38,009 nt of DNA from a virus. The stretch covers positions 1 through 38,009 of the IMG/VR virus record IMGVR_UViG_3300042397_000172. The stretch is one strand, 5' to 3'. The notes under the pieces are model-generated. The model was not told where the DNA came from, did not search any database, and worked only from the letters and a program-made list of their open reading frames with translations. Shown here piece after piece: positions 5,194 through 34,081 of this stretch (its first letter is position 1; each line of letters opens with the position of its first letter). The position numbers and the translations under genes were made by a program.

Positions 5194-6734
5194 CACGAAC
5201 CCATCCATGAAGTTGTGGCTGCACCGTTTTGAGCGTTGCGCCGGGTGATTGTGCGTTCATTGTACTCCCGATGTGCCACAGGGTACGCGAAGGTCACGGC
5301 GATGGCGTCAGCCGCATCGGGGGACGCTTGTCCACGGGCTTTCATTTCCTTCTTGCCTTCCAAAAAGATGGTGCCTGCCGAGTTGGGTTTCTTCATCGGG
5401 CCGACCAGATCGCTCTTGAGCAGCCTGTCCTGCGGGATGCTGGCGGTCTTGAGCCAGTCGCGCATCGCACCCCAAATCTCAGCCCGCTTATTGCCCCACA
5501 TGGTCGGGTTCTTGGCCTTCCAGCCAAAGTTGACCCCGCGCACTTTGTACTTCTGCTCGGTCAATCTGTCAAGGATGCCGTATCCAAGGCCACCCTCGTC
5601 GATCACGGTCAGTGCTGGCCGGTACTCCTCGATGGCGTCGATAACATGGCCCACAGTGGTCATGGTGTCGTCACCACGGAACCGCTTGATCGCCACGATG
5701 TCCCGCCCTTGGCGCACGGCGATCACGGTGCTGTCCATGCCGCCCCGGGCCGGGTCCACGCCCACGATGATGGGCGCGGTCATGTCCTTGTGCAGTTGCC
5801 GCTTCATGGCGTCATCGACAAGGTGTGGTGCGATGAACTGGTCTTGGCCCGACTTGGGGAAGTCACCGTAGACCTCGACCCGGGCCTCGTCCGAGTCCTC
5901 ACCGTACTCGTTGATGATCTGCTGGTAGATGGTCTTGTCGGTGCCTTCTACTGTGCGGGCGTCGATCTTCTCGCTCTCCCAGAACTCCCGCTTAACACCG
6001 TCCACGGCCTCATAGAAGTACCCGGTGTTGCGACGACCGTTGCTGAACGCGAACCAGTACCGGTCCAAGATGTTCTCGGTGAAGAAGCCCGCAGCCACGG
6101 ACCAGATGCTGTCCGGGATACCGCTGGCCTCATCGAAGATCACCATCATGCCGTCCATGTTGTGGACACCGGCGTAGGCGTCAGGGTTCTCCTCGGACCA
6201 CAGCTTCCCCTCGGCACCCCAGTACCGGGTGCCTTTGCGCAGGTCACGCTCGACCAGTTCGGTCAACCAGTTGGCCGGGTTCAGGCTCGTGGCCGTGGGT
6301 TCCCACCAGTGGGCGTTGATCGCCATCGTGACCCACTTGGTCAACTCACCCCATGTCACTTTGCGCAACTGGTTCTCGCTGTTGGCCGACACGATGACAG
6401 ACGAACCAATGCGCGTACTCAGCATCCACAGGATCAACCAGCTAACCAGTGCTGATTTGCCCACCCCCCGGCCAGAGGACACAGCCCTGCGCAACGCGTC
6501 GATCAACTGGTCGTTGGTCAGCTTGCCCCGGTTCTCCTTGATGAAGTCCCGTATCCTGCGCAGTGCTCTCCTCTGCCATGCACGAGGGGCTTTGAAGTGT
6601 TCGAGGGGTGTGTTCTTCTGCCCCCAAGGGAACACAAAGAGCACAAACGCCTCGGGGTCGTCCTTGATAGACGGACTCCAAAGCTGGGCCATGAGCGTTT
6701 GCTCATCTTCTGGGCTGTACCGGGGCTTCTGCAT
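5193..6734 (-). CDS. terL: Terminase large subunit, 513 aa
   Basis: This is the ATP-driven packaging motor and headful nuclease. The Walker A-like motif is SGRGVGKS at residues 87-94, and Walker B is MMVIFDEAS with D201/E202. The C-terminal RNase H-like nuclease shows its acidic residues in VGVDPARGG (D327), TVIDEGG (D379) and SPDAADAIA (D473/D476). The length is close to P22 gp2 (499). A GTG lies one codon upstream, but the ATG at 6734 is better spaced from GGAG and overlaps the previous stop (TGATG). It works with TerS and docks on the portal. P22-type terminases package headfuls, which would fit a circularly permuted genome. Confidence 0.96.
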   Translation of the reverse strand: MQKPRYSPEDEQTLMAQLWSPSIKDDPEAFVLFVFPWGQKNTPLEHFKAPRAWQRRALRRIRDFIKENRGKLTNDQLIDALRRAVSSGRGVGKSALVSWLILWMLSTRIGSSVIVSANSENQLRKVTWGELTKWVTMAINAHWWEPTATSLNPANWLTELVERDLRKGTRYWGAEGKLWSEENPDAYAGVHNMDGMMVIFDEASGIPDSIWSVAAGFFTENILDRYWFAFSNGRRNTGYFYEAVDGVKREFWESEKIDARTVEGTDKTIYQQIINEYGEDSDEARVEVYGDFPKSGQDQFIAPHLVDDAMKRQLHKDMTAPIIVGVDPARGGMDSTVIAVRQGRDIVAIKRFRGDDTMTTVGHVIDAIEEYRPALTVIDEGGLGYGILDRLTEQKYKVRGVNFGWKAKNPTMWGNKRAEIWGAMRDWLKTASIPQDRLLKSDLVGPMKKPNSAGTIFLEGKKEMKARGQASPDAADAIAVTFAYPVAHREYNERTITRRNAQNGAATTSWMGS

Positions 6735-7117: not shown

Positions 7118-7212
7118 TTGGGCTTCTTTCCAAAGATCGCGTCCCAGTTGTCGCGGAACTTCTGGGGGTCGGGGATCGGTCTAGGCGCGGAGCCTTTGCC
7201 ACCATCACTCAT
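7114..7212 (-). CDS. Mini-protein between terS and the zincin gene, 32 aa
   Basis: ATG at 7212 has GGAG 9 nt upstream. It overlaps the end of terS by 8 nt, and its TGA overlaps the next ATG (ATGA). The protein starts MSDGGKGSAPRPI and ends KFRDNWDAIFGKKPK. Small proteins with a GKGS.PRP start and a (N/D)xxD.IFG end are common beside phage terminase genes in my recall, with no known role. Good coding context on both sides makes it likely to be translated. Confidence 0.65.
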   Translation of the reverse strand: MSDGGKGSAPRPIPDPQKFRDNWDAIFGKKPK

Positions 7213-7774
7213 CACGGTTCTCCAGTCGAGGGGTTACGTCAATGACCTCACCCTCAATCACCCGGGCTTGGGCCTGCGCCAGCGCCTCGGTGATAGAGAT
7301 GGTGCCACCCAGTTCAATTTGTTTCGTCTCGCCGTAGCGTTTGCGATTGTGTGCACCCATGAGCCACTTGCGCGTGTCGATGCGCAACTTGTCGCGGTTC
7401 ACCGTGTCGTTCGAGTTGGCGTCGATGGACTCGACCCCATCGGCAATCTCCAGAATCTCACCCGCAAGAAACTCAGTGCGCATCTCCTGCGCTTCCTTGA
7501 ACCGTTCATGGCGAACGGGGTCACGCTTTACCCAGCGCAGGAAGTCCTCATACGAGATGGCCCGGTGGTCATCCTCAATCAGCGATTGCAGGGACCGGCC
7601 CCGGTAGATGTCTTCCACGACCCTCTCGAAGATTTGCTCATATTCGACATGCAGCAACGCCCTTGCAGCCTTCGAGGTTCTGAGGGGTTCTGGGTCAGGC
7701 ACGGACAGCCAGTTGGGCAGTTGATTTTCACTGGCGACAGCCGTGCCTACAAACGAGGTGTTCTCTTGTTTCAT
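7205..7774 (-). CDS. terS: Terminase small subunit, Sf6/P22-like, 189 aa
   Basis: This is the pac-site recognition subunit that loads TerL on DNA. Residues 70-160 match the Sf6 gp1 type: an HTH-like stretch (ISYEDFLRWVKRDP), then EAQEMRTEFLAGEILEIADG, and KLRIDTRKWLMGAHNRKRYG, the typical end of the oligomerisation region. The C-terminal tail ending in VIDVTPRLENRDE is probably the TerL contact. No strong Shine-Dalgarno site precedes the ATG at 7774. It is the first gene of the late block and faces the control region; P22-like phages often carry pac inside this gene. Confidence 0.9.
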   Translation of the reverse strand: MKQENTSFVGTAVASENQLPNWLSVPDPEPLRTSKAARALLHVEYEQIFERVVEDIYRGRSLQSLIEDDHRAISYEDFLRWVKRDPVRHERFKEAQEMRTEFLAGEILEIADGVESIDANSNDTVNRDKLRIDTRKWLMGAHNRKRYGETKQIELGGTISITEALAQAQARVIEGEVIDVTPRLENRDE

Positions 7775-7836: not shown

Positions 7837-7880
7837 ACCCATTGGGGTCAATGATTCGTAGAAGCATTTACCCATTGGGT
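7837..7880. promoter_or_regulatory. Operator pair on the late side
   Basis: There is an exact ACCCATTGGGT at 7870-7880 and an imperfect ACCCATTGGGG at 7837-7847, with centres 33 bp apart. On the minus strand, TTGACC (7851-7846) overlaps the second site, so binding here could control leftward transcription into terS. No good -10 is seen at the proper distance (TCCATT at 17 bp is weak). Confidence 0.5.
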
Positions 7881-8026
7881 TTCTGATTTTCTAAAAAATT
7901 TTCAGAGTTTCTGTGATGCCTACATAGCCGGACCATCGAACTCGCTGGCCCTACCCCCTCCCCTCGCCCCAGCGACTCCCGGGCACCACTGCAACCGCGC
8001 ACCCAGCACGGACACCCCAGCACCCG

Positions 8027-8043
8027 CGCACCCACTGGGTGCG
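8027..8043. promoter_or_regulatory. Operator palindrome, extended form
   Basis: CGCACCCACTGGGTGCG is a perfect 17-nt palindrome around C8035, containing the shared core ACCCANTGGGT at 8030-8040. It is the longest symmetric copy in the genome and is a likely dimeric repressor or activator site. Confidence 0.65.
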
Positions 8044-8063
8044 GAGATTCGCGCACCACTTAC

Positions 8064-8074
8064 ACCCAGTGGGT
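8064..8074. promoter_or_regulatory. Operator palindrome ACCCAGTGGGT
   Basis: Exact copy of the 11-nt palindrome; its centre is 34 bp from the extended copy at 8027-8043, nearly the same spacing as the late-side pair (33 bp). Confidence 0.6.
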
Positions 8075-8123
8075 CCACGTGTCCGGGTACTTTGGGCGGG
8101 CAAAGTGGGCACGGAATACGCGC

Positions 8124-8134
8124 ACCCAGTGGGT
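8124..8134. promoter_or_regulatory. Operator palindrome ACCCAGTGGGT
   Basis: Exact copy. The 11-nt segment AAAGTGGGCAC precedes it at 8102-8112 and again precedes the copy at 8189 (8180-8190), so this part of the array looks duplicated. Confidence 0.6.
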
Positions 8135-8155
8135 CCGGGGTTCAATCGAGAAACC

Positions 8156-8181
8156 GGGGAAATTCCCCAGAATCTGGGGAA
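8156..8181. repeat. Nested palindromes
   Basis: GGGGAAATTCCCC (8156-8168) overlaps the perfect 19-nt palindrome TTCCCCAGAATCTGGGGAA (8163-8181). They share the TTCCCC arm, so two alternative hairpins or two overlapping dimer sites are possible. The element sits between two ACCCAGTGGGT operators. Confidence 0.6.
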
Positions 8182-8188
8182 AGTGGGC

Positions 8189-8199
8189 ACCCAGTGGGT
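8189..8199. promoter_or_regulatory. Operator palindrome ACCCAGTGGGT
   Basis: Exact copy, the last of the upstream array and 136 bp before the early promoter at 8335. Confidence 0.6.
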
Positions 8200-8301
8200 C
8201 TGTGTTACCGTGTTTATGCAGCACGGCACCGGAATAACCTTTCCCGCGTGCGCGACCCTTAGATTCAATACGATTTTTAAACAGTCTTTTAATCCGAGAA
8301 T

Positions 8302-8330
8302 CCTAGAATCAGATACCCCTAGCTTCTAGG
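8302..8330. repeat. Inverted repeat CCTAGAA/TTCTAGG
   Basis: Seven-base arms (8302-8308 and 8324-8330) are separated by 15 nt and end 4 nt before the -35 of the early promoter. It could be a separate operator. Smaller CTAG-type dyads occur at 8878-8894 and just before the HTH gene (CCTAGCACATAGG, 11504-11516). Confidence 0.45.
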
Positions 8331-8334
8331 CAAT

Positions 8335-8365
8335 TTGTCACAACAATGTAGAAGTGTGGTAACAT
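8335..8365 (+). promoter_or_regulatory. Early promoter, extended -10
   Basis: The -10 is TAACAT (8360-8365), with the extended element TGG before it, making TGnTAACAT. TTGTCA at 8335-8340 is a possible -35 with a 19-nt spacer. The same layout recurs at 15489 and 22443. It would start the early transcript about 25 nt before the ATG at 8395. The upstream half of the -10 region (AAGTGTG, 8352-8358) is shared with the promoter at 22443. Confidence 0.6.
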
Positions 8366-8394
8366 GGAAACACTTAACCAACGGAGCACAACCC

Positions 8395-8901
8395 ATGCTA
8401 AACAGACAAGCCCTTGAAGATGCCGTTTATGCGGCGTACCCTGACCTTGAGATGTCCGACATCGAACGGCTACCCAGCGAAAAACTCGACTACATGCTGG
8501 GCGTGAGACAAGGCCGCTGGAAACTACCGCGAAGCAAGAAAGCCGCCGAACCCGAAGCCAAGACGATTTGGCAAGAAGTCGGGGAGCGTTACGAAGTGCG
8601 GGGCGGCGTGTTGGTTCACGTTGAATCGTGGCGCGTGTCGAATGATGCCGGGTATGACGTGCGCGAATACGTGCAGCAATGCGGGGAGCGTGTTCTCTTT
8701 GAAGGCCGCACCCGTTCAGCGTCAATCGTGGCGCACTACCTGACCACTGGCGAATGGGTAAAGCGAATCCCGAAGCCGCGCCGCATTCGTGCAGTCGTGC
8801 GGGATGGTGCGCGAGTGGTGCACTTGGGTTACTTCGCAACCGTGGAAGAACGGGACGCCGCAATTTTCGCCCACAAGCTAGGAATAACCCCTAGTGAATA
8901 A
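8395..8901 (+). CDS. First early protein, AP2-like C-terminus, 168 aa
   Basis: The frame reaches back to a TTG at 8335, but that lies in the promoter. The ATG at 8395 has GGAG 8 nt upstream. The C-terminal 40 residues (RAVVRDGARVVHLGYFATVEERDAAIFAHKLG) have the shape of an AP2/ERF DNA-binding element: basic strand, hydrophobic LGYF strand, then a helix rich in Ala. This type is also found in phage homing endonucleases and integrases. The middle (VREYVQQCGERVLFEGRTRSASIVAHYL) is not recognised. As the first early gene, directly under the early promoter, it may be a DNA-binding regulator or host-takeover protein. Confidence 0.7.
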   Translation: MLNRQALEDAVYAAYPDLEMSDIERLPSEKLDYMLGVRQGRWKLPRSKKAAEPEAKTIWQEVGERYEVRGGVLVHVESWRVSNDAGYDVREYVQQCGERVLFEGRTRSASIVAHYLTTGEWVKRIPKPRRIRAVVRDGARVVHLGYFATVEERDAAIFAHKLGITPSE

Positions 8902-8904
8902 TTT

Positions 8905-8944
8905 ACCCAGTGGGTATTGACAATTAGACCCAGTGGGTTAGAAT
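8905..8944 (+). promoter_or_regulatory. Second early promoter with two operators
   Basis: A perfect -35 TTGACA (8917-8922) and a TAGAAT -10 (8939-8944) are 16 bp apart. One ACCCAGTGGGT (8905-8915) ends 1 bp before the -35, and a second (8928-8938) fills the spacer up to the first base of the -10. Binding of a dimer at either site would block RNA polymerase. This is the clearest promoter-operator in the window and supports reading the other palindromes as operators. Confidence 0.8.
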
Positions 8945-10355: not shown

Positions 10356-10673
10356 ATGAACACGCAACAACTGACCACCGAAGAACAAGAACGCGCCGCA
10401 TATATGGCGGGCGACACCCGGGCCGCTGAACTACTGGCCCAAATTGCCCAACTCGAAGCCGAACGGGATGCACTGGCCGAAGAACTGGAAAAGGCGCGGG
10501 AACGCTTGCCCGTTCGGTTTTTTATCGTTGACTATGACCTAGACGAAGGCCCGGATATCGTGGAAGTTGACGAACGGGACTTTTTAAGCGCCGATGGTTC
10601 GATTAAGTACGAACGCCACACCGTGTTTCAAAATGGCGTGGATCAAATTTGCCTGACAAAGGGGTTTGAGTGA
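10356..10673 (+). CDS. Coiled-coil early protein, 105 aa
   Basis: Residues 20-49 form a heptad-like coiled coil (AAELLAQIAQLEAERDALAEELEKARERL), probably for dimerisation. The rest is an acidic domain (VDYDLDEGPDIVEVDERDF) that ends with two short strands. Overall charge is strongly negative; acidic proteins of this sort sometimes mimic DNA, but there is no specific evidence here. GGAG precedes the start. Confidence 0.65.
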   Translation: MNTQQLTTEEQERAAYMAGDTRAAELLAQIAQLEAERDALAEELEKARERLPVRFFIVDYDLDEGPDIVEVDERDFLSADGSIKYERHTVFQNGVDQICLTKGFE

Positions 10674-10781: not shown

Positions 10782-11447
10782 ATGAAACACCAAATCAAAC
10801 ACCGCTTTACCGAATCCGTTCTTTTTGAATGCGACTTGCCCGACGACACCCCGTCCGGACTGGTCACCCGTCACGCTTTGGAAAAAGCTACCGCCGCCGG
10901 GGCCTACCTCGACGGGGCCTACCTCGACGGGGCCTACCTCGCCGGGGCCAACCTCGACGGGGCCAACCTCGACGGGGCCTACCTCGCCGGGGCCAACCTC
11001 GACGGGGCCTACCTCGCCGGGGCCTACCTCGCCGGGGCCAACCTCGACGGGGCCAACCTCGACGGGGCCAACCTCGACGGGGCCAACCTCGCCGGGGCCT
11101 ACCTCGACGGGGCCTACCTCGACGGGGCCTACCTCGCCGGGGCCAACCTCGCCGGGGCCTACCTCGCCGGGGCCAACCTCGCCGGGGCCTACCTCGCCGG
11201 GGCTTTATTGGTGGGCGAACGTCCAATTTTTCAAATTGGCCCCATTGGGTCACGTTGCGCGTATTTCACGGCATATCTGACAAGCGAAGGTGTGAAACTT
11301 CGGGCGGGTTGTTTCTTTGGCACCGTGGACGAATTCACCGCGAAATTGTCTAAAGAACACGGGGGCAACATCCACGCGAAAGAATACCGCGCCGCCCTTG
11401 ACCTGATCCATTATCACGCCGGATTGTGGACACCGCCGACACCTTGA
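10782..11447 (+). CDS. Pentapeptide-repeat protein, 221 aa
   Basis: Residues 40-139 are 20 exact tandem pentapeptides GA(Y/N)L(D/A), followed by a degenerate GALLV. This is the A(D/N)LXX type that folds as a right-handed quadrilateral beta-helix and can mimic DNA, as in MfpA and Qnr, which bind gyrase. The N-terminal 39 residues (MKHQIKHRFTES to ATAA) and the C-terminal domain (GSRCAYFTAYLTSEGVKLRA, CFFGTVDEFTAKL, AKEYRAALDLI) are non-repetitive; a similar C-terminal domain follows pentapeptides in other phage proteins by recall. The gene ends at a terminator. It may act on host gyrase or another DNA-binding target; the target is inference. Confidence 0.9.
   Translation: MKHQIKHRFTESVLFECDLPDDTPSGLVTRHALEKATAAGAYLDGAYLDGAYLAGANLDGANLDGAYLAGANLDGAYLAGAYLAGANLDGANLDGANLDGANLAGAYLDGAYLDGAYLAGANLAGAYLAGANLAGAYLAGALLVGERPIFQIGPIGSRCAYFTAYLTSEGVKLRAGCFFGTVDEFTAKLSKEHGGNIHAKEYRAALDLIHYHAGLWTPPTP
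10899..11198 (+). repeat. 20 tandem 15-bp units
   Basis: Each unit is GGGGCCxACCTCGxC. The first x is T or A (Tyr or Asn) and the second x is A or C (Asp or Ala); every other base is identical in all 20 units. The array encodes the pentapeptide helix. Such DNA identity suggests recent growth or homogenisation by slippage or unequal recombination. Confidence 0.95.
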
Positions 11448-11926: not shown

Positions 11927-12151
11927 ATGAACGCACTTGAACACTATGACCGCCTCTATGGTGACATGGACCTGAACCCCCAAGACGCTGCCCGATTCGT
12001 GTTTGTCTCGGGCTGGAATAGCGCAATGGAAGAAGCCATGAAGCGCGTGAATGCCATGCCCTTTGGCAATGACACCCGGGCATCGTTTGCCATCTATTTC
12101 CAGCAGATGATGATGGTTGACCCCTCGGACATTCAGGAGAAGATGCAATGA
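11927..12151 (+). CDS. Small early protein, 74 aa
   Basis: The ATG at 11927 has a strong GAAGGAG site; the frame reaches back 15 nt to a weaker TTG. The protein is helical with many Met and Asp residues (HYDRLYGDMDLNPQDAARFV, ARASFAIYFQQMM). A segment ARFVFVSGWNSAMEEAM is like small phage proteins where a Trp-centred helix is conserved. Its stop overlaps the glutaredoxin start. Function unknown. Confidence 0.65.
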   Translation: MNALEHYDRLYGDMDLNPQDAARFVFVSGWNSAMEEAMKRVNAMPFGNDTRASFAIYFQQMMMVDPSDIQEKMQ

Positions 12152-12381
12152 ACATCGTGATCTACACCAAGACCAACTGCCCCAACTGCACCACGGCCAA
12201 GCGGTTGCTGGACAGCAGGGGGATCGGGTTTGAGGATCGGGACATCGAGGTGCCGCTGTGGTTTGAGACATTGAACATGCTTTACCCAGAAGCCCGACAA
12301 ATGCCCCAGATTTTCATCAACAACCAGCGTGTCGGTGGACTCGCTGGACTTCAAAACGCACTCAAGGAGTTAGGACTATGA
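12148..12381 (+). CDS. Glutaredoxin, 77 aa
   Basis: This is a small thiol-disulfide oxidoreductase. The redox motif is CPNC at residues 11-14 after the IVIYTKTN strand. The cis-Pro loop is MPQIFIN, and RVGG with the following helix closes the fold, as in NrdH/Grx proteins. Length is typical. Phage glutaredoxins usually serve a ribonucleotide reductase, but no such enzyme is seen here, so it may feed the host enzyme or keep the zinc-finger neighbours reduced. The start overlaps the upstream stop (ATGA) and the stop overlaps the next start. Confidence 0.92.
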   Translation: MNIVIYTKTNCPNCTTAKRLLDSRGIGFEDRDIEVPLWFETLNMLYPEARQMPQIFINNQRVGGLAGLQNALKELGL

Positions 12382-12497
12382 CCGAATGCAAACACCGCTG
12401 GCTGCTCACCCCATCGCCACACCGCACCCAGTACCACTACCAGTGCGCCCGATGTGCCCAAGTGGCATGGGCCACGCTTAAGGAGAAGGCAGAATGA
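12378..12497 (+). CDS. Mini zinc-binding protein, 39 aa
   Basis: The ORF has ATGA overlaps at both ends and an AAGGAG site. C4-K-H6 near the start and the knuckle CARC (residues 24-27) within YHYQCARCAQVAW suggest one treble-clef or ribbon-like zinc site. Similar very short proteins are frequent in phage operons. It could bind nucleic acid or be a protein adaptor; unknown. Confidence 0.6.
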   Translation: MTECKHRWLLTPSPHRTQYHYQCARCAQVAWATLKEKAE

Positions 12498-12733
12498 GCA
12501 GCAAGCCAAACATCCATGACATACTTAAGAACGCCTGCGAGAAGTTCGGCCTGACGATGGGCGAGGCTTTAGCAATCACAAAAACACCGTTGCACCCACG
12601 CGAGCTGCGCGACGACTTTGCTGGCAAGGCGATGGCATCCGTGATTGCCCGAGGTGACGACACAAACCGCCCCGGCATGGCCGAGTGGTCTTACGCAATG
12701 GCAGACGTTATGCTGAAAGCGAGGAACGAATGA
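12494..12733 (+). CDS. Small helical protein, 79 aa
   Basis: ATGA overlap and AAGGAGAAGG precede the start. The N-terminal half (IHDILKNACEKFGLTMGEAL) looks helical, and the C-terminal half (AGKAMASVIARGDDTNRPGMAEWSYAMADVMLKA) is like many small phage proteins that have A..AM..V with a final ADxML helix. No function is known. Confidence 0.65.
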   Translation: MSSKPNIHDILKNACEKFGLTMGEALAITKTPLHPRELRDDFAGKAMASVIARGDDTNRPGMAEWSYAMADVMLKARNE

Positions 12734-12875: not shown

Positions 12876-15374
12876 TCATTCCATCGTGTCAGGGTCATAC
12901 CCCTTGACCAGTTTGCGCTCCTTGCCCTTGTCGTAGGCGTGGCGGTAGATGTAGTCAGCGTGGCGCTGCTTGGCCTTGAGCACCTGCTCCCGGTAGTCCT
13001 TGAACATCGTGGGCAGCGTGGGGTTGATGGCCCACATCGCACGGTGCTTGTGCAGTTCCTCCTCGATCTTGACAGCCCACCCGGCCTGCTCCAGCACCAG
13101 CATGGCGTCCATGACCATTTGGTCCTTTTGCCATTCGGTCTTGCCCTCCAGCTTACGCCGTGCTGACCGCTTCAGGGTGCGCAGGTCGATCATGGTGATC
13201 TCGGTGCTGTTCTGGATGATGTGGTCGATCACCCACTGGTCAAAGTCATTCGAGATAGCCCCGGCCACTTCACCCAGTGCGTAGCGGTAGGCGGGGATCA
13301 CGTAGCCCTTCACGAATGAGATGACCCTGTGGACAACATCGGGGGCAACCTGTGGGCTGAATGGAGACTCGATGACGTGGAACAGCAGGATTAACCGGCC
13401 AGCCAAGCCCTCCAGCTTGCCGAAGGCCGTCATGTACTCAGGCCCGCTGTCCAGCACCCTCTCGTCTTGCTTGGCCTCCTCGTACCATGCTTGGAACTCA
13501 CGGAACACGGTGTACGCATCGGGCGACAGTTGATAAGTCTGTGGGGGCAGCGCATAGGTCAGGCGCAGGGTGTTCTCCCACGCTGCGGCGCTGGTCAGGT
13601 ACTCGGGCACCGGCTGGCCCAGCTTGGTCTTGCTGCCGCGCAGGATGGCGGGGATGAATCGTTGCAGCAGGCCGTCAGCCGACAGTGGTGCCACGCTGGC
13701 CCGGAACACCGCTGGCTGGATGTTCCCGTAGATGCTCACGGCCAAGTTCTCGCAGTGGATCGACCCCGCGCCCACTCGGTCCATCTCGTAGTGTTCTGAC
13801 TCGTAGCTGACAACCCATGCAGAGCGATCCTCGCCACTGGTCTTGTCTGTCAGCTTGCGCACCCAACTGTTCATCTCATCGAGGTGGCACAGCAGGCCAC
13901 GAGGTCGGTCTGCCGCTTGGCGCACCAGCTTCTGACTCGTGATGTCGGACACCGTGATCTTCAGGGGCACGGGCTGGGGTGGCATCTCGGGAACCAGTGG
14001 GGCTTGATCAGCACCCAACAAGGCATCGGGCGAAGATGACCATTCGAGGAAGCCCTTTTTGGCCGCAGCATAGGCCGCTTCCTTGCCCTCCCAGTCCAGC
14101 AGTTCCTTGCCGTAGCGGGGCCGGTCCTCGGCTTCGATGTTCTTCAGCGGCGACAGCATGGGCCGCGATCCGGGTGACTTCTTGTCCGCTGGATCGCCCA
14201 AAGTCATGAGCCACAGCACCGGGGGCACACGAAACCCCGGCATGAGTTCCAGCCGAATGCGGGCATCAATCACCCCGCAGACAGCGGCCAACCCAGCGAA
14301 CAAAGGGACCAAAGGGTCACAGCCCACGCTTTCTGAAATCTCAGTGGATCGGGTCTTGAGGATGTTGGGCCACAGGGACAGGTCCATCTCGGGTGGCTTG
14401 GGCCGCAGGCCATCGAGTACGTTGATCGGCTCCATGACGGGCACCTCAACCTTGCTGAACAACTCGGACGCATCGGGCAGGGGTCTGGACCAGCCGTGGG
14501 ACTTGGCAATGTGAAACAAGGTGCCCAGCTTGACCGCTGTCGCTTTGTCAGGCTTGAAGCTGATCCACTGCGTCAGGATTTCACGCTCCCCGGGGTACTT
14601 GGTCTGCGCCGTGGCGCTCCACTCGTTCCACAGCGACAAAGCCTGCTCAAGCTGCTCGGTTTGAATGCCCGCCCAGTGCAGGGCCATGCCGATGCTGACC
14701 CACTCGTCGCGGGTGCAGTCAGCGGGCACCGCATCGAGTGCTTGCCTGATCTCCTCCCATGAGGCGTCAATCGAGCCGTCCGTGGCGATGGTGCGCTCTT
14801 TGTCCTGCGCCAGCATCCCACTCCACAGGTCCAGCAGGGCTTGAGGGATCACCGGCATCCGGGTCCAGTGACCGTGGCCTGCCCAGTGGTAGGGCTGGCG
14901 TGTCTCGGGGTGGATTGATGGGGGCAGCACGTCCTGCACCGTGAGACCGCTGACCGTGGCGCAGCGCAACTCGTAGGCCGTGATGCCGCTGTGCATGATC
15001 TTCTTCGATGGCAGCGCAGCGCCGAAGGGCATCGCGTACAGCAGCTTGCCGTGCCCGGGCTTGCCCGAATTGATCACCACGGCGTCAGGCGCATCGTAGA
15101 GGGCTTGCAGATCAATGCCATGCTCTGCCAGCAGACTGGTCGTCACGGTCCAGTTGTCGATGTCCAGCGCCATCGTGCCGCTGTACGCATGGGCCAAACC
15201 GATACCGTAGCCCGGGGGCAGGTCGCCTTGGGCCTTGAGGGCGTTCTGTTTGAGGTTCCAGCCCGGGGTGCGCGGCCCCTTGGTGTTGGCTGGAATGGGC
15301 ACAAGTGACCAACCGTGTCTGATGTAAGCGTCAACAGACGCTGGATGTGATTGCACAGTCTGTGGTGCTGTCAT
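12876..15374 (-). CDS. Primase-helicase, Prim-Pol plus DUF3987, 832 aa
   Basis: This is a multi-domain replication protein. Residues 15-180 are a bifunctional primase/polymerase (Prim-Pol) domain, with GWSLVPIPANTKGPRTPGW and the catalytic DxD in MALDIDNW (D71, D73). Residues 207-292 fit PriCT-2 (IRQALDAVPADCTRDEWVSIGMAL, then ALSLWNEWS). The rest is DUF3987, a helicase-like ATPase, with Walker A-like GDPADKKS (393-400) and Walker B-like LLCHLDEMNSW (D499, E500). The usual GKS is KKS here. A TTG at 15434 would add 20 residues but lies in a hairpin; the ATG at 15374 is coupled to a 15-codon leader ORF. It is the only non-late minus-strand gene and has its own promoter candidate at 15526-15496. 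Confidence 0.9.
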   Translation of the reverse strand: MTAPQTVQSHPASVDAYIRHGWSLVPIPANTKGPRTPGWNLKQNALKAQGDLPPGYGIGLAHAYSGTMALDIDNWTVTTSLLAEHGIDLQALYDAPDAVVINSGKPGHGKLLYAMPFGAALPSKKIMHSGITAYELRCATVSGLTVQDVLPPSIHPETRQPYHWAGHGHWTRMPVIPQALLDLWSGMLAQDKERTIATDGSIDASWEEIRQALDAVPADCTRDEWVSIGMALHWAGIQTEQLEQALSLWNEWSATAQTKYPGEREILTQWISFKPDKATAVKLGTLFHIAKSHGWSRPLPDASELFSKVEVPVMEPINVLDGLRPKPPEMDLSLWPNILKTRSTEISESVGCDPLVPLFAGLAAVCGVIDARIRLELMPGFRVPPVLWLMTLGDPADKKSPGSRPMLSPLKNIEAEDRPRYGKELLDWEGKEAAYAAAKKGFLEWSSSPDALLGADQAPLVPEMPPQPVPLKITVSDITSQKLVRQAADRPRGLLCHLDEMNSWVRKLTDKTSGEDRSAWVVSYESEHYEMDRVGAGSIHCENLAVSIYGNIQPAVFRASVAPLSADGLLQRFIPAILRGSKTKLGQPVPEYLTSAAAWENTLRLTYALPPQTYQLSPDAYTVFREFQAWYEEAKQDERVLDSGPEYMTAFGKLEGLAGRLILLFHVIESPFSPQVAPDVVHRVISFVKGYVIPAYRYALGEVAGAISNDFDQWVIDHIIQNSTEITMIDLRTLKRSARRKLEGKTEWQKDQMVMDAMLVLEQAGWAVKIEEELHKHRAMWAINPTLPTMFKDYREQVLKAKQRHADYIYRHAYDKGKERKLVKGYDPDTME

Positions 15375-15418
15375 AGAATAATCCCGTTGGTGATTGCAGT
15401 TGCCGACACTTCGTTCAT
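15371..15418 (-). CDS. 15-aa leader ORF before the primase gene
   Basis: ATG at 15418 has a strong AAGGAG at 8 nt. It encodes MNEVSATAITNGIIL, and its TGA overlaps the primase ATG (ATGA). It is in a different frame from the primase extension. The primase ATG itself has only a poor ribosome site, so translation is probably coupled through this mini-ORF. Whether the peptide itself does anything is unknown. Confidence 0.5.
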   Translation of the reverse strand: MNEVSATAITNGIIL

Positions 15419-15432
15419 TGAGCTTCTCCTTC

Positions 15433-15468
15433 AAAGCCCCGGTCTAACCACCGGGGCTTTTCTTTTTT
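15433..15468 (+). terminator. Terminator on the plus strand, leader hairpin on the minus strand
   Basis: AAAGCCCCGG (15433-15442) pairs with CCGGGGCTTT (15451-15460) around 8 nt. On the plus strand TCTTTTTT follows, a good intrinsic terminator that would stop antisense read-through before the replication operon. On the minus strand the same hairpin is in the primase leader and ends next to the AAGGAG of the mini-ORF. Confidence 0.8.
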
Positions 15469-15488: not shown

Positions 15489-15519
15489 TTGCACAATGGT
15501 ATCACAGTCGTGCTACACT
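15489..15519 (+). promoter_or_regulatory. Replication operon promoter, extended -10
   Basis: TACACT (15514-15519) is preceded by TGC, giving TGnTACACT. TTGCAC (15489-15494) is 19 nt upstream. It drives the RHH gene at 15545 and the replication block. It overlaps almost fully with an opposite promoter. Confidence 0.6.
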
Positions 15520-15526
15520 GCGTCAT
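15496..15526 (-). promoter_or_regulatory. Primase promoter, facing the replication promoter
   Basis: On the minus strand, TACCAT (15501-15496) is preceded by TGA, and ATGACG (15526-15521) is 19 nt upstream. It has the same layout as the plus-strand promoter in the same 38 bp. The transcript would start near 15489 and include the leader hairpin. Confidence 0.5.
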
Positions 15527-15544
15527 CGGTCAAGGAAATTATTT

Positions 15545-15757
15545 ATGACATCACCCAAATCCAAATCAGCGTTCATGACTGTCCGAGTGACAGACAAGAC
15601 GCGCACCAAGTTTCATGAGAAAGCACGGAAGATCGGAACACCGAGCGAAGTGCATCGTGAAATCGTCGAGGCGTTTGTTGAAGACCGCCTCACAATTCAA
15701 CCCCCTGTAAACCGTAACCCTCTGGAGAAAATTTATGTCACTCGAACTCAAGATTGA
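15545..15757 (+). CDS. Ribbon-helix-helix DNA-binding protein, 70 aa
   Basis: After a basic start comes a beta-strand (FMTVRVTD), then helix 1 (KTRTKFHEKARKIG) and helix 2 (TPSEVHREIVEAFVEDRL), the Arc/MetJ-type RHH order, with the turn at GTPSEV. A short tail (QPPVNRNPLEKIYV) follows. RHH proteins dimerise and bind palindromes through the strand. ATG at 15545 follows AAGGA. As the first gene after the overlapping promoters it is a natural autoregulator that could switch between primase and the rest of replication. Its end overlaps the next gene by 23 nt. Confidence 0.8.
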   Translation: MTSPKSKSAFMTVRVTDKTRTKFHEKARKIGTPSEVHREIVEAFVEDRLTIQPPVNRNPLEKIYVTRTQD

Positions 15758-27046: not shown

Positions 27047-28405
27047 TTACTTGAGCAACGGGTTGCTTGTGTCCACACCACCGGCAGCGGGAGCAGCGGG
27101 TGCGCCGCCACCACCTGCGCGAGAAGCGCGAGATTGAGCGTTCGACACACCCTTGCGGATCACGTCTTGCAGGTCCATTGCGGCGCGGATGAATTCCTTC
27201 TCGTCTGTCGAGGTGGACATCCGGTTGATGGCGTCCGTACCCTTCTGGCCTTCTTTTTCCGTGATGGCACCGCCACCCTTGAGCGACTCGAAGGCTTCAA
27301 GGAACGAAGCACCCTTGATCTGGTCAAAGCGGGACATGAAGCCAGCGGCATCGGTGCCGGGAATGAACCGTGCACCGGGGAGCCATGTGGCACCCACGGC
27401 GTTTTGGAAACCGGGGTGGGTTTTCTCACCTTTGAGCAATTGACCGGTCTTCGAGTCGCGCTTGCCGATCAATTCGTCGATCAGGCGCATACCCTCCTCG
27501 GCACGACCAATGACCTTCGGCAGCGCCTGTTGTGCAGCCACGTCACCCTTGGCGATTGCTTCACCAACGGCTCGTGCGCCACCCATGCGCTGCTGGAACT
27601 CTGGGTCGGCATCACGACGAGCGTTTTCCTCAAGCACGGCAACACGGCGACCTTCAAGGCCGATGCGCAGACCTTCGTTCTTGATGCGCTCGGCTTCACC
27701 GGGGGCCATTGTCTTGGTCTGAGTGCCGATTGTTTTTAGTTCACCGGTCAGCGGCGCAAAGGTGCGCGACTCGACTTTACCGCCAAGGTCCGTGGTGGAC
27801 AGTTGCGGCTTGTTCAGTTCCATGAACTTCTCGGTGCCCAGCTTGGACTCGTTGATCAAGCGGTTCAGACCACCGGGGGTCTGCAACAACTGCTGAATGC
27901 GCTGCATCGACTGGTCCACCGTGATACCACGGGCTTCCAGTGCCTTGCCAATCACGGGGTCAGCATGGTTGGCTTTGTGCCACTGCATGTACGCCTCGGC
28001 AGCGTTGGGCGAAGTTGGGTCGATTGTTTCAAGGAACTGGCGCGACTGTTTCAGCTTGCTGTCAAGCAAGTCAACCTGTGCCTTTTGCTGCTTGGTTTTT
28101 GCTTCACCAAGTTCCAACAGACCCTTTTCAATACCCGGCAGCTTGGAGCCGAAGCCACCAGTCGAGAGTGACCCGCGCAGCTTGTTGACATCCACTTCAC
28201 CGGTCTGTGGGTTGTACGCTTCAGCGTATGCACGGTTCAACGCATTGGTCGATTCCTGCTCACGCTGAAGATTCTGCATCTGCAACTGGGCCAGTTGGTT
28301 CTGCTGCTGTGCGCCTTGGATCGCGGCCACGCGACCATACTGAGCCAGCGGGTCTTGCAGTTCGATGCCTTTGACAGCAAGGGCGATATTTGGGTTGATG
28401 GGCAT
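27047..28405 (-). CDS. Ejection protein, 452 aa
   Basis: Coiled, Gln-rich N-terminus (AIQGAQQQNQLAQLQMQNLQREQ), helical middle, and a C-terminal block FDQIKGASFLEAFESLKGGGAITEKEGQKGTDAINRM. That block is common in phage DNA-transfer or internal virion proteins by recall. The end is a Gly/Ala/Pro-rich tail (AGGGGAPAAPAAGG). It lies between two other ejection-protein candidates, matching the gp7-gp20-gp16 run of P22. AAGGACT precedes the start. Confidence 0.8.
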   Translation of the reverse strand: MPINPNIALAVKGIELQDPLAQYGRVAAIQGAQQQNQLAQLQMQNLQREQESTNALNRAYAEAYNPQTGEVDVNKLRGSLSTGGFGSKLPGIEKGLLELGEAKTKQQKAQVDLLDSKLKQSRQFLETIDPTSPNAAEAYMQWHKANHADPVIGKALEARGITVDQSMQRIQQLLQTPGGLNRLINESKLGTEKFMELNKPQLSTTDLGGKVESRTFAPLTGELKTIGTQTKTMAPGEAERIKNEGLRIGLEGRRVAVLEENARRDADPEFQQRMGGARAVGEAIAKGDVAAQQALPKVIGRAEEGMRLIDELIGKRDSKTGQLLKGEKTHPGFQNAVGATWLPGARFIPGTDAAGFMSRFDQIKGASFLEAFESLKGGGAITEKEGQKGTDAINRMSTSTDEKEFIRAAMDLQDVIRKGVSNAQSRASRAGGGGAPAAPAAGGVDTSNPLLK

Positions 28406-28414
28406 GATGAGTCC

Positions 28415-29134
28415 TTACAGGCGACCGCCGCCAAGCGAGTAATCGACTGGTGCCATCTGAGTGGTTTGGTAAGAATAGCTTGGTGCAGCGGTGGGCTGCG
28501 GAGCCAGTCGATTCATCATCTGCTGACCCTGATAGTAATTCAGGCCGGTGTTCAGAGCACCCGTCAGTGCGTTGGCACCACCCACGTAACCCGAGGCCCG
28601 CGCCGCAGCACCACTCATTTGGGTTTCGCCGATGTTCTGAGCAGCCTGCATACCAGCTTGACCAATCTGCTGCGCTGTGGTTTGACCCACACCGGCCAGC
28701 GATTGCAAAGGCTGGAGTCGGGCAGCGCGTTCAGTCTGATACCGGTTGAATGCGTTTGTGTATTCTTGCGATGCGAGGTCTTGACCGAATCGCTGAACGC
28801 CTTTAAGAGTGGCACCGGACAGCAGACCACCACGAGCAGCAGCGGACCGCTCCAGTCCTTTCATGCCCTCAGACATGCGAAACGAGTAGCCCGGGTCGGC
28901 TTGAAACTGAGCCATGCCGAAGTTTTGATAATCAGTCAGTGGGATCAGTTTATTGAGTGCCTGCTCACCGGCCTTGCGCCAAGGTTCCGACAGTTCAACC
29001 TGTCGTTCAAACATGCGCTCTTGCCCTTCGGCGGCACGATCAGCGGCAGCAGCCTGTGTGGATGCGGCACTTTTTGATGCGCTACCGCCAATTAACGCAC
29101 TGCCGACTACGGCACCAGCTACCCAAAATGTCAT
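28415..29134 (-). CDS. gp7-like ejection protein, 239 aa
   Basis: The N-terminus is a hydrophobic Gly/Ala helix (FWVAGAVVGSALIGGSASKSAA), then an amphipathic coil. The strongest signature is QADPGYSFRMSEGMKGLERSAAARGGLLSG, then ASQEYTNAFNRY, a pattern found in many DNA-ejection proteins of short-tailed phages (P22 gp7-like). It is probably packed in the head and released into the host envelope. The C-terminus is Tyr/Pro/Gln-rich. Its start overlaps the cupin-like gene stop (ATGA). Confidence 0.8.
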   Translation of the reverse strand: MTFWVAGAVVGSALIGGSASKSAASTQAAAADRAAEGQERMFERQVELSEPWRKAGEQALNKLIPLTDYQNFGMAQFQADPGYSFRMSEGMKGLERSAAARGGLLSGATLKGVQRFGQDLASQEYTNAFNRYQTERAARLQPLQSLAGVGQTTAQQIGQAGMQAAQNIGETQMSGAAARASGYVGGANALTGALNTGLNYYQGQQMMNRLAPQPTAAPSYSYQTTQMAPVDYSLGGGRL

Positions 29135-33384: not shown

Positions 33385-33630
33385 TCAGTTTCCTTCGGAT
33401 TCGTCGCTTGCCGAAGTCAGAAAAGACGGGACTTCGTTGGGCTGTTCGACAGGTTGTTCGGTCACTTTGCGAGTCAGCTTGTTGCGCACAGGCTTGTCTG
33501 CTTTTGGTGCCACCTCGACAGGTGTGTCAGGATTGTACCGTGTCCAGCCGTTTTTTTCATCTTCGGCGAGTTCAACATCGTTGATGGCTACTTTGGCACC
33601 GTGAATTGGGTGTACGAGGGTTACGTTCAT
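33385..33630 (-). CDS. Small protein upstream of gp4, 81 aa
   Basis: The frame extends to 33642, but ATG 33630 has GGAG at 7 nt. It begins NVTLVHPIHGAKVAINDVEL, then NGWTRYNP, and continues with a basic, Pro-rich tail (KPVRNKLTRKVTEQPVEQP). This start resembles a small phage family where an (HP)xHGA strand and GW.RY.P recur by recall. It is downstream of the UUCG terminator and 1 nt before gp4. Perhaps a virion accessory; unknown. Confidence 0.68.
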   Translation of the reverse strand: MNVTLVHPIHGAKVAINDVELAEDEKNGWTRYNPDTPVEVAPKADKPVRNKLTRKVTEQPVEQPNEVPSFLTSASDESEGN

Positions 33631-33645
33631 TTGATTCTCCATGTG

Positions 33646-33669
33646 AAAACGGGGCCGAAGCCCCGTTTT
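33646..33669 (-). terminator. UUCG-capped terminator after the decoration gene
   Basis: AAAACGGGGC/GCCCCGTTTT is a perfect 10-bp stem around CGAA (UUCG on the minus transcript), ending in a U-run. It should lower read-through from coat/decoration into the tail genes. Confidence 0.88.
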
Positions 33670-33685
33670 ACCAGTTGCTCAAAAA

Positions 33686-34081
33686 TTAAGCAACGCGATA
33701 TGCGGTCCAAGTGCCATCGCCGGTTTTACGGGCGAGGAATCGGGCCGATGTGTTGGCGCTGACAGCAGCCACACCAACGATGGTCCAGCCAGTGCCGACC
33801 ACCAAAGTGGCAGCGTTGGTGCCGCCAATGTTGATGATGCCAAACTCAAATGCGGAGTTCACTTTCTGTGCGCTAGAAACGTCAGCTTCCAGATCGGCCA
33901 CGGTGGGCAGAGTCAGGTTGACGGCAGCGCCAGTGTATGTGAACAGACCATTCGACAGTTGAGCACCAGTCAGAGTTGCTGCGGCTGTCAGTGCTACGGG
34001 AGCACCTTGAACCGTCAGATTAGCTTCGCCGATGTTGCCGTCACCGATTTGGTAACCGCCTGCGCCGTTAGGGAGTGCCAT
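33686..34081 (-). CDS. Capsid decoration-like protein, 131 aa
   Basis: The start ALPNGAGGYQIGDGNIGEAN and the pattern ALTAAATLTGAQLSNGLFTY, LPTVADLEADVSSAQ, then VVGTGWTIVG, SARFLARKTGDGTWTAYRVA are frequent in proteins encoded just after phage coat genes. The whole is beta-rich and neutral. A role as capsid decoration or fibre is inferred from its place between two strong terminators after coat, which implies high and separate expression. AGAGGA precedes the ATG. Confidence 0.78.
   Translation of the reverse strand: MALPNGAGGYQIGDGNIGEANLTVQGAPVALTAAATLTGAQLSNGLFTYTGAAVNLTLPTVADLEADVSSAQKVNSAFEFGIINIGGTNAATLVVGTGWTIVGVAAVSANTSARFLARKTGDGTWTAYRVA

Follow-up and report, generated by a model that had tools for sequence, protein, structure and literature searches.

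A conserved palindrome array over an early promoter of freshwater P22-like phages, probably the operators of a regulatory switch

A conserved array of short palindromes next to the terminase small-subunit gene terS is, as judged from its sequence and distribution, very probably the operator array of a phage regulatory switch, and we estimate the probability of this reading at about 0.85. The array lies in a 38,009-bp phage contig of IMG/VR, the whole length of which was analysed and is referred to here as the window. It consists of multiple near-identical palindromes, one of which overlaps a promoter, as in phage-repressor operator arrays, and it is kept in related phages along with a phage DNA-binding protein. 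The conservation in relatives and the copy inside the spacer of the early promoter together argue for a real operator array over this promoter. They also strengthen the sequence-only reading of the palindromes as the operator set of a phage switch, and are compatible with both a lysis/lysogeny switch and a timed shut-off of early genes.

The portal protein of the contig is P22-like (Pfam E-value 8.7e-180), and the gene content comprises an Sf6-like TerS, a TerL, a phage DNA polymerase and a primase-polymerase/helicase encoded on the minus strand. The latter gene (12876-15434, with a DUF3987 helicase domain) opposes the surrounding early genes, and a strong hairpin terminator is present at 15433-15460. 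No integrase was seen among the translated genes of the record, and the RHH marker of the family (Table 1) finds 206 relatives on viral contigs versus a single match among 84,980 genomes of bacteria and archaea, which agrees with the earlier suspicion that classical lysogeny may not be involved. An Rfam search of the window gave no match.

A word scan of the whole record shows exactly seven exact copies of ACCCANTGGGT, all within 7870-8938 and all intergenic, with the starts given in Table 1; the copies reported by the sequence-only reading are thereby complete. Its expectation of about 0.04 copies is reproduced by the base composition of the record (0.043), while dinucleotide shuffles yield 0.08 copies on average, none of 100 shuffles reaching seven. 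The near copies which it placed at 7837 and 11240 are present as well, but further one-mismatch copies occur at 6331, 13272 and 16323, so a lone near copy outside the array is uninformative. Less of its statement that the copies lie next to divergent promoters could be retained, since the early promoter of Table 1 is the only sigma-70-like promoter between 7700 and 9200, and no recognisable promoter was found on the terS strand of this interval. Most array copies touch no recognisable promoter, and none is recognisable near the terS-proximal site or the AT-rich block. Promoter control alone is insufficient to account for the distal copies beside this block, which may be part of an origin.

Table 1. 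Features of the window related to the palindrome array.
Feature	Position	Strand	Remarks
terS, Sf6-like terminase small subunit	7205..7774	-	first gene left of the array; phrog_1482 E 1.1e-23, Pfam PF20901 E 2.2e-19
Operator site 1 (ACCCATTGGGT)	7870..7880	no strand	95 bp upstream of terS, near the AT-rich block; near copy at 7837-7847 beside it
AT-rich block, conserved (GATTTTCTAAAAAATTTTCAG)	7886..7906		logo of 104 relatives; in terS sense gAAAATTTTTTnnAAAAtcAaAA immediately before site 1
Four-site cluster (8030, 8064, 8124, 8189)	8030..8199		G+C-rich intergenic DNA
Accessory early gene between cluster and promoter	8398..8901	+	homologue in 7 motif loci among the matches listed
Operator site immediately before the early-promoter -35 box	8905..8915
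Early promoter TTGACA-16-TAGAAT	8917..8944	+	11/12 consensus bases
Operator site closing the -35/-10 spacer	8928..8938		abuts the -10 box
Candidate binder, XRE-type HTH protein, 128 aa	11529..11915	+	MqsA-like DNA-binding domain; inside the early operon
Rival binder, small RHH-like protein, 70 aa	15545..15757	+	own promoter

The scan of genome and relatives that had been proposed as a check turned out in favor of the array. The relatives are represented by 110 distinct terS-upstream regions, combined from the loci of a motif scan and those fetched through the HTH and RHH candidate proteins. At least three copies of ACCC-N3-GGGT are found in 106 of these regions (median 7, maximum 17), adding up to 747 copies compared to 3.8 expected after shuffling, and five relatives in which exact copies are scarce or missing (G062, G063, G065, G066 and G069) have, at the corresponding place, versions of the word that differ by one base. 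The spacer between the half-sites is strictly chosen, with 3 bp in the 747 copies, 4 bp in only 27 and other short lengths hardly ever, and its center reads ANT in 71% and GCT/AGC in 20% of the cases. The spacings between copies are free and show no helical phasing (444 spacings, no periodicity above random), indicating that selection acts on single 11-bp sites; the cluster spacings of 34, 60 and 65 bp are identical in the close relatives L005, L015 and L104. Pairs of copies within 30 bp occur at no fewer than 119 loci of the viral collection versus 14 for the reversed motif. Among the matches listed in this first scan, about 65 loci have the array immediately in front of a gene for a TerS homologue, and those outside the family represent tandem repeats, chance matches or other phages without an HTH or RHH homologue.

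The overlap with the promoter is also a recurrent feature. In 61 of the 110 relatives, a site follows 4-7 nt after a TTGACN hexamer and fills the promoter spacer, often with TAGAAT, TATAAT or a similar word directly behind it, and in about 50 phages the site is located 5-6 nt from the -35 box, between the TTGACN hexamer and a TAnnnT-like word. A second site is situated exactly 59 bp upstream of the promoter site in many relatives, and an inverted CACR...GTG repeat beyond the AT-rich block is present in 45 of 104 relatives (background 3%).

The protein binding to the array was not yet known to the sequence-only reading, and the choice can now be narrowed to a probable candidate, the HTH protein of Table 1. 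It is favored because of its match to the MqsA DNA-binding domain, the closeness of the published MqsA operator ACCT-N3-AGGT to ACCC-N3-GGGT, and the different promoter element of the rival RHH gene. The first early protein (8398-8901) was rejected as a general binder because of the few motif loci with a homologue (Table 1). The HTH profile matches the MqsA DNA-binding domain in the PDB (3fmy, E 1e-4), while the matches to Pfam MqsA (PF15731, E 1.2e-3) and NCBIfam TIGR03830 (E 1.7e-3) are both below the curated cut-offs, the former being restricted to positions 71-120 of the 131-position profile. A CxxC pair is missing from the window protein, as is the N-terminal zinc-binding domain of the MqsA family, and no MqsR toxin gene is recognisable by Pfam among the neighbors of its gene: the products of 10356-10673, 11927-12151, 12148-12381 and 12494-12733 show no Pfam toxin match, and one of them is a glutaredoxin. 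A pentapeptide-repeat protein with near-identical AYLDG/ANLDG units is encoded at 10782-11447, without a homologue in the motif loci listed (tblastn).

The AlphaFold model of the HTH protein reaches pLDDT values above 93 for residues 11-80 and aligns with HigA2, MqsA and Aca2 at Z-scores of 6-7, which are weak evidence if taken alone. MqsA is known to bind ACCT-N3-AGGT and TAACCT-N3-AGGTTA via Asn97 and Arg101 (PMC4901048; PMC4894380). The contact residue Arg101 aligns with an invariant Lys48 of the HTH family, and the position of Asn97 is occupied by Phe, Tyr or His in the homologues. The recognition helix is variable in distant homologues (FTLRK, HALIK, HTYIK), yet the word stays constant, and a Mantel test of operator center against protein divergence gave a weak correlation for HTH (r 0.08) and was not decisive in the comparison of HTH with RHH. 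An AT-hook-like RGR/GRP motif is found in the disordered C-terminal tail of about half of the HTH homologues.

Array and candidate binders show a closely matching distribution. In a first set, from which the fragments G046 and G048 ending near the array had been left out, each of the 12 long array-bearing family records contains both HTH and RHH, and in a second set RHH occurs in 28 of 28 records and HTH in 25. The three records with RHH but no HTH (G054, G062 and G076) appear to be contigs ending inside the early region and therefore do not discriminate between the two proteins. Both are absent from 11 records of the sister clade of MW202483 (TerL about 66% identical to that of the window), which share the packaging genes, and the word is missing there save two single copies in about 59 usable terS-upstream regions out of 66, the other seven being excluded because the contig ends there. 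This joint presence and joint absence suggests that array and binder come and go together, although co-distribution does not separate HTH from RHH. At the place where ACCC-N3-GGGT would stand, MW202483.1 (L125) carries six GTTTA-N2-TAAAC palindromes (28220-28590), and such an array is also seen in L350, while three copies of TTCGGC-N3-GCCGAA are found in the sister phages L389, L390 and L404.

The word is also encountered outside the family. Eight unrelated, mostly low-G+C phages (L096, L105, L107, L111, L116, L120, L020 and L102) carry ACCCANTGGGT every ~30 bp inside acccaaaaa...tatt units, and no HTH or RHH homologue was detected in those of this tandem-repeat type that were searched. Four phage contigs, most of 53-58 kb (L014, L036, L090 and L106), contain a pair of ACCCANTGGGT sites at a distance of 25 bp, close to a promoter-like TTGACG word; none of three searched encodes an HTH or RHH homologue, and their paired sites probably belong to an independent regulator.

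That the array is bound instead by the RHH-like protein, which as an Arc/MetJ/CopG-type dimer would repress or time the early promoter, seems rather unlikely. RHH dimers are able to bind short palindromes, and the protein is encoded in every long family record that has the array and absent from the unrelated motif-pair records as well as from the 11 sister-clade records; moreover, its putative beta-strand FMTVRV is well conserved and Arg14 is invariant. However, 94 of 95 relatives have no ACCC-N3-GGGT in front of the RHH gene, and its promoter (~15495-15545) has a different conserved, near-palindromic spacer element, TTGCACAATcGTATCACAGnTGTGCTACACT. Neither the sequence nor the structure of the protein matched a solved RHH protein, and its predicted model is poor, with nothing usable returned by Foldseek and VIA-align, so the RHH assignment rests on sequence pattern. 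The spacer element of the RHH promoter may be RHH's own operator.

Still less probable is a main function of the array as replication origin, with iteron-like sites and an AT-rich block opened by an initiator, and with the promoter overlap as secondary control. Such an origin would be in line with the conserved AT-rich block adjoining site 1, a feature of iteron origins whose unwinding here is putative, with the up to 17 copies per phage, most of them distant from promoters, and with two perfect DnaA boxes (TTATCCACA) in inverted orientation that are separated by 59-60 bp within the array of six relatives (L010, L031, L058, L061, L101 and L119). However, an exact DnaA box is absent from the window and from 102 of the 110 relatives, the missing helical phasing differs from classical iterons, and the placement in the -35/-10 spacer is the behavior of an operator. 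The DnaA-box pair of the six relatives flanks a CTTATATAAGAC-like palindrome. Finally, TerS or another packaging protein might mark the packaging start at these sites, as the array always adjoins terS, but this is very improbable: the sites sit within the early promoter, the sister-clade phages have homologous packaging genes and no array, and TerS varies freely between 39 and 99% identity while the word remains constant, for which reasons TerS was rejected as binder.

The most plausible course of events, in which the array serves as operators for a phage-made repressor, probably the HTH protein, that represses its own early operon, would be as follows. Host RNA polymerase would start the rightward early operon at TTGACA-16-TAGAAT, and HTH dimers would accumulate from the gene carried about 2.6 kb downstream in this operon. 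A dimer would recognize ACCC-N3-GGGT (ACCCAGTGGGT) with one half-site per monomer, like MqsA on ACCT-N3-AGGT, and dimers at the 8905 and 8928 sites, on the promoter itself, would block the polymerase, thereby shutting off the early operon including the HTH gene in a negative feedback. We infer repression as the effect of binding from this arrangement; the distal sites at 7870-8199 may serve to enrich the repressor locally, with a possible influence on terS or on replication starting here. A wider and doubtful extension would have the antitoxin-type domain as master regulator of a freshwater phage family in which no integrase is visible, with up to 17 operators coordinating early transcription, terminase expression and replication start, and the AT-hook-like tail possibly holding the AT-rich block.

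These results provide a testable operator word, a promoter and a candidate repressor for common uncultured freshwater P22-like podoviruses, a group for which we found no described regulation; likewise, a literature search found no paper reporting the word as a phage operator. If the proposal is true, MqsA-type recognition of half-sites 3 bp apart would serve phages as a master switch, and sister phages would lack or replace the whole module of array and binder as one unit. The closest named relative, phage DSL-LC05 (OR003940.1, TerL 92%), has four exact array copies at 33446-33970, at the same place. It comes from Dishui Lake and is predicted to be virulent (PMC10611076), and the array is unmentioned in the accessible part of that description; its HTH gene is annotated as 'repressor protein C'.

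Among the known systems, the E. coli MqsA operators resemble the array in their build of two 4-bp half-sites 3 bp apart, and the difference is confined to the inner base of each half; MqsA, whose DNA-binding domain is of a related HTH type, represses its own operon. In contrast to MqsA, the phages described here have up to 17 sites, no zinc-binding domain and no recognisable MqsR toxin gene nearby. The OL/OR operators of lambda and those of P22 c2 likewise give an HTH repressor several places to bind, one of them over an early promoter, whereas in our case no integrase was seen, no divergent repressor gene stands beside the array, the operator is shorter and the repressor gene would be located downstream in the controlled operon. 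The stoperators of Cluster A mycobacteriophages are similar in offering many identical repressor sites per phage genome (PMC9283540), but these are asymmetric 13-mers distributed genome-wide and oriented with transcription, while the array is palindromic and confined to 7870-8938. Phage-repressor operator arrays as such are already known; the novelty here resides in the phage family and its word, in the connection with an MqsA-type domain and in how densely phages without a visible integrase use the sites.
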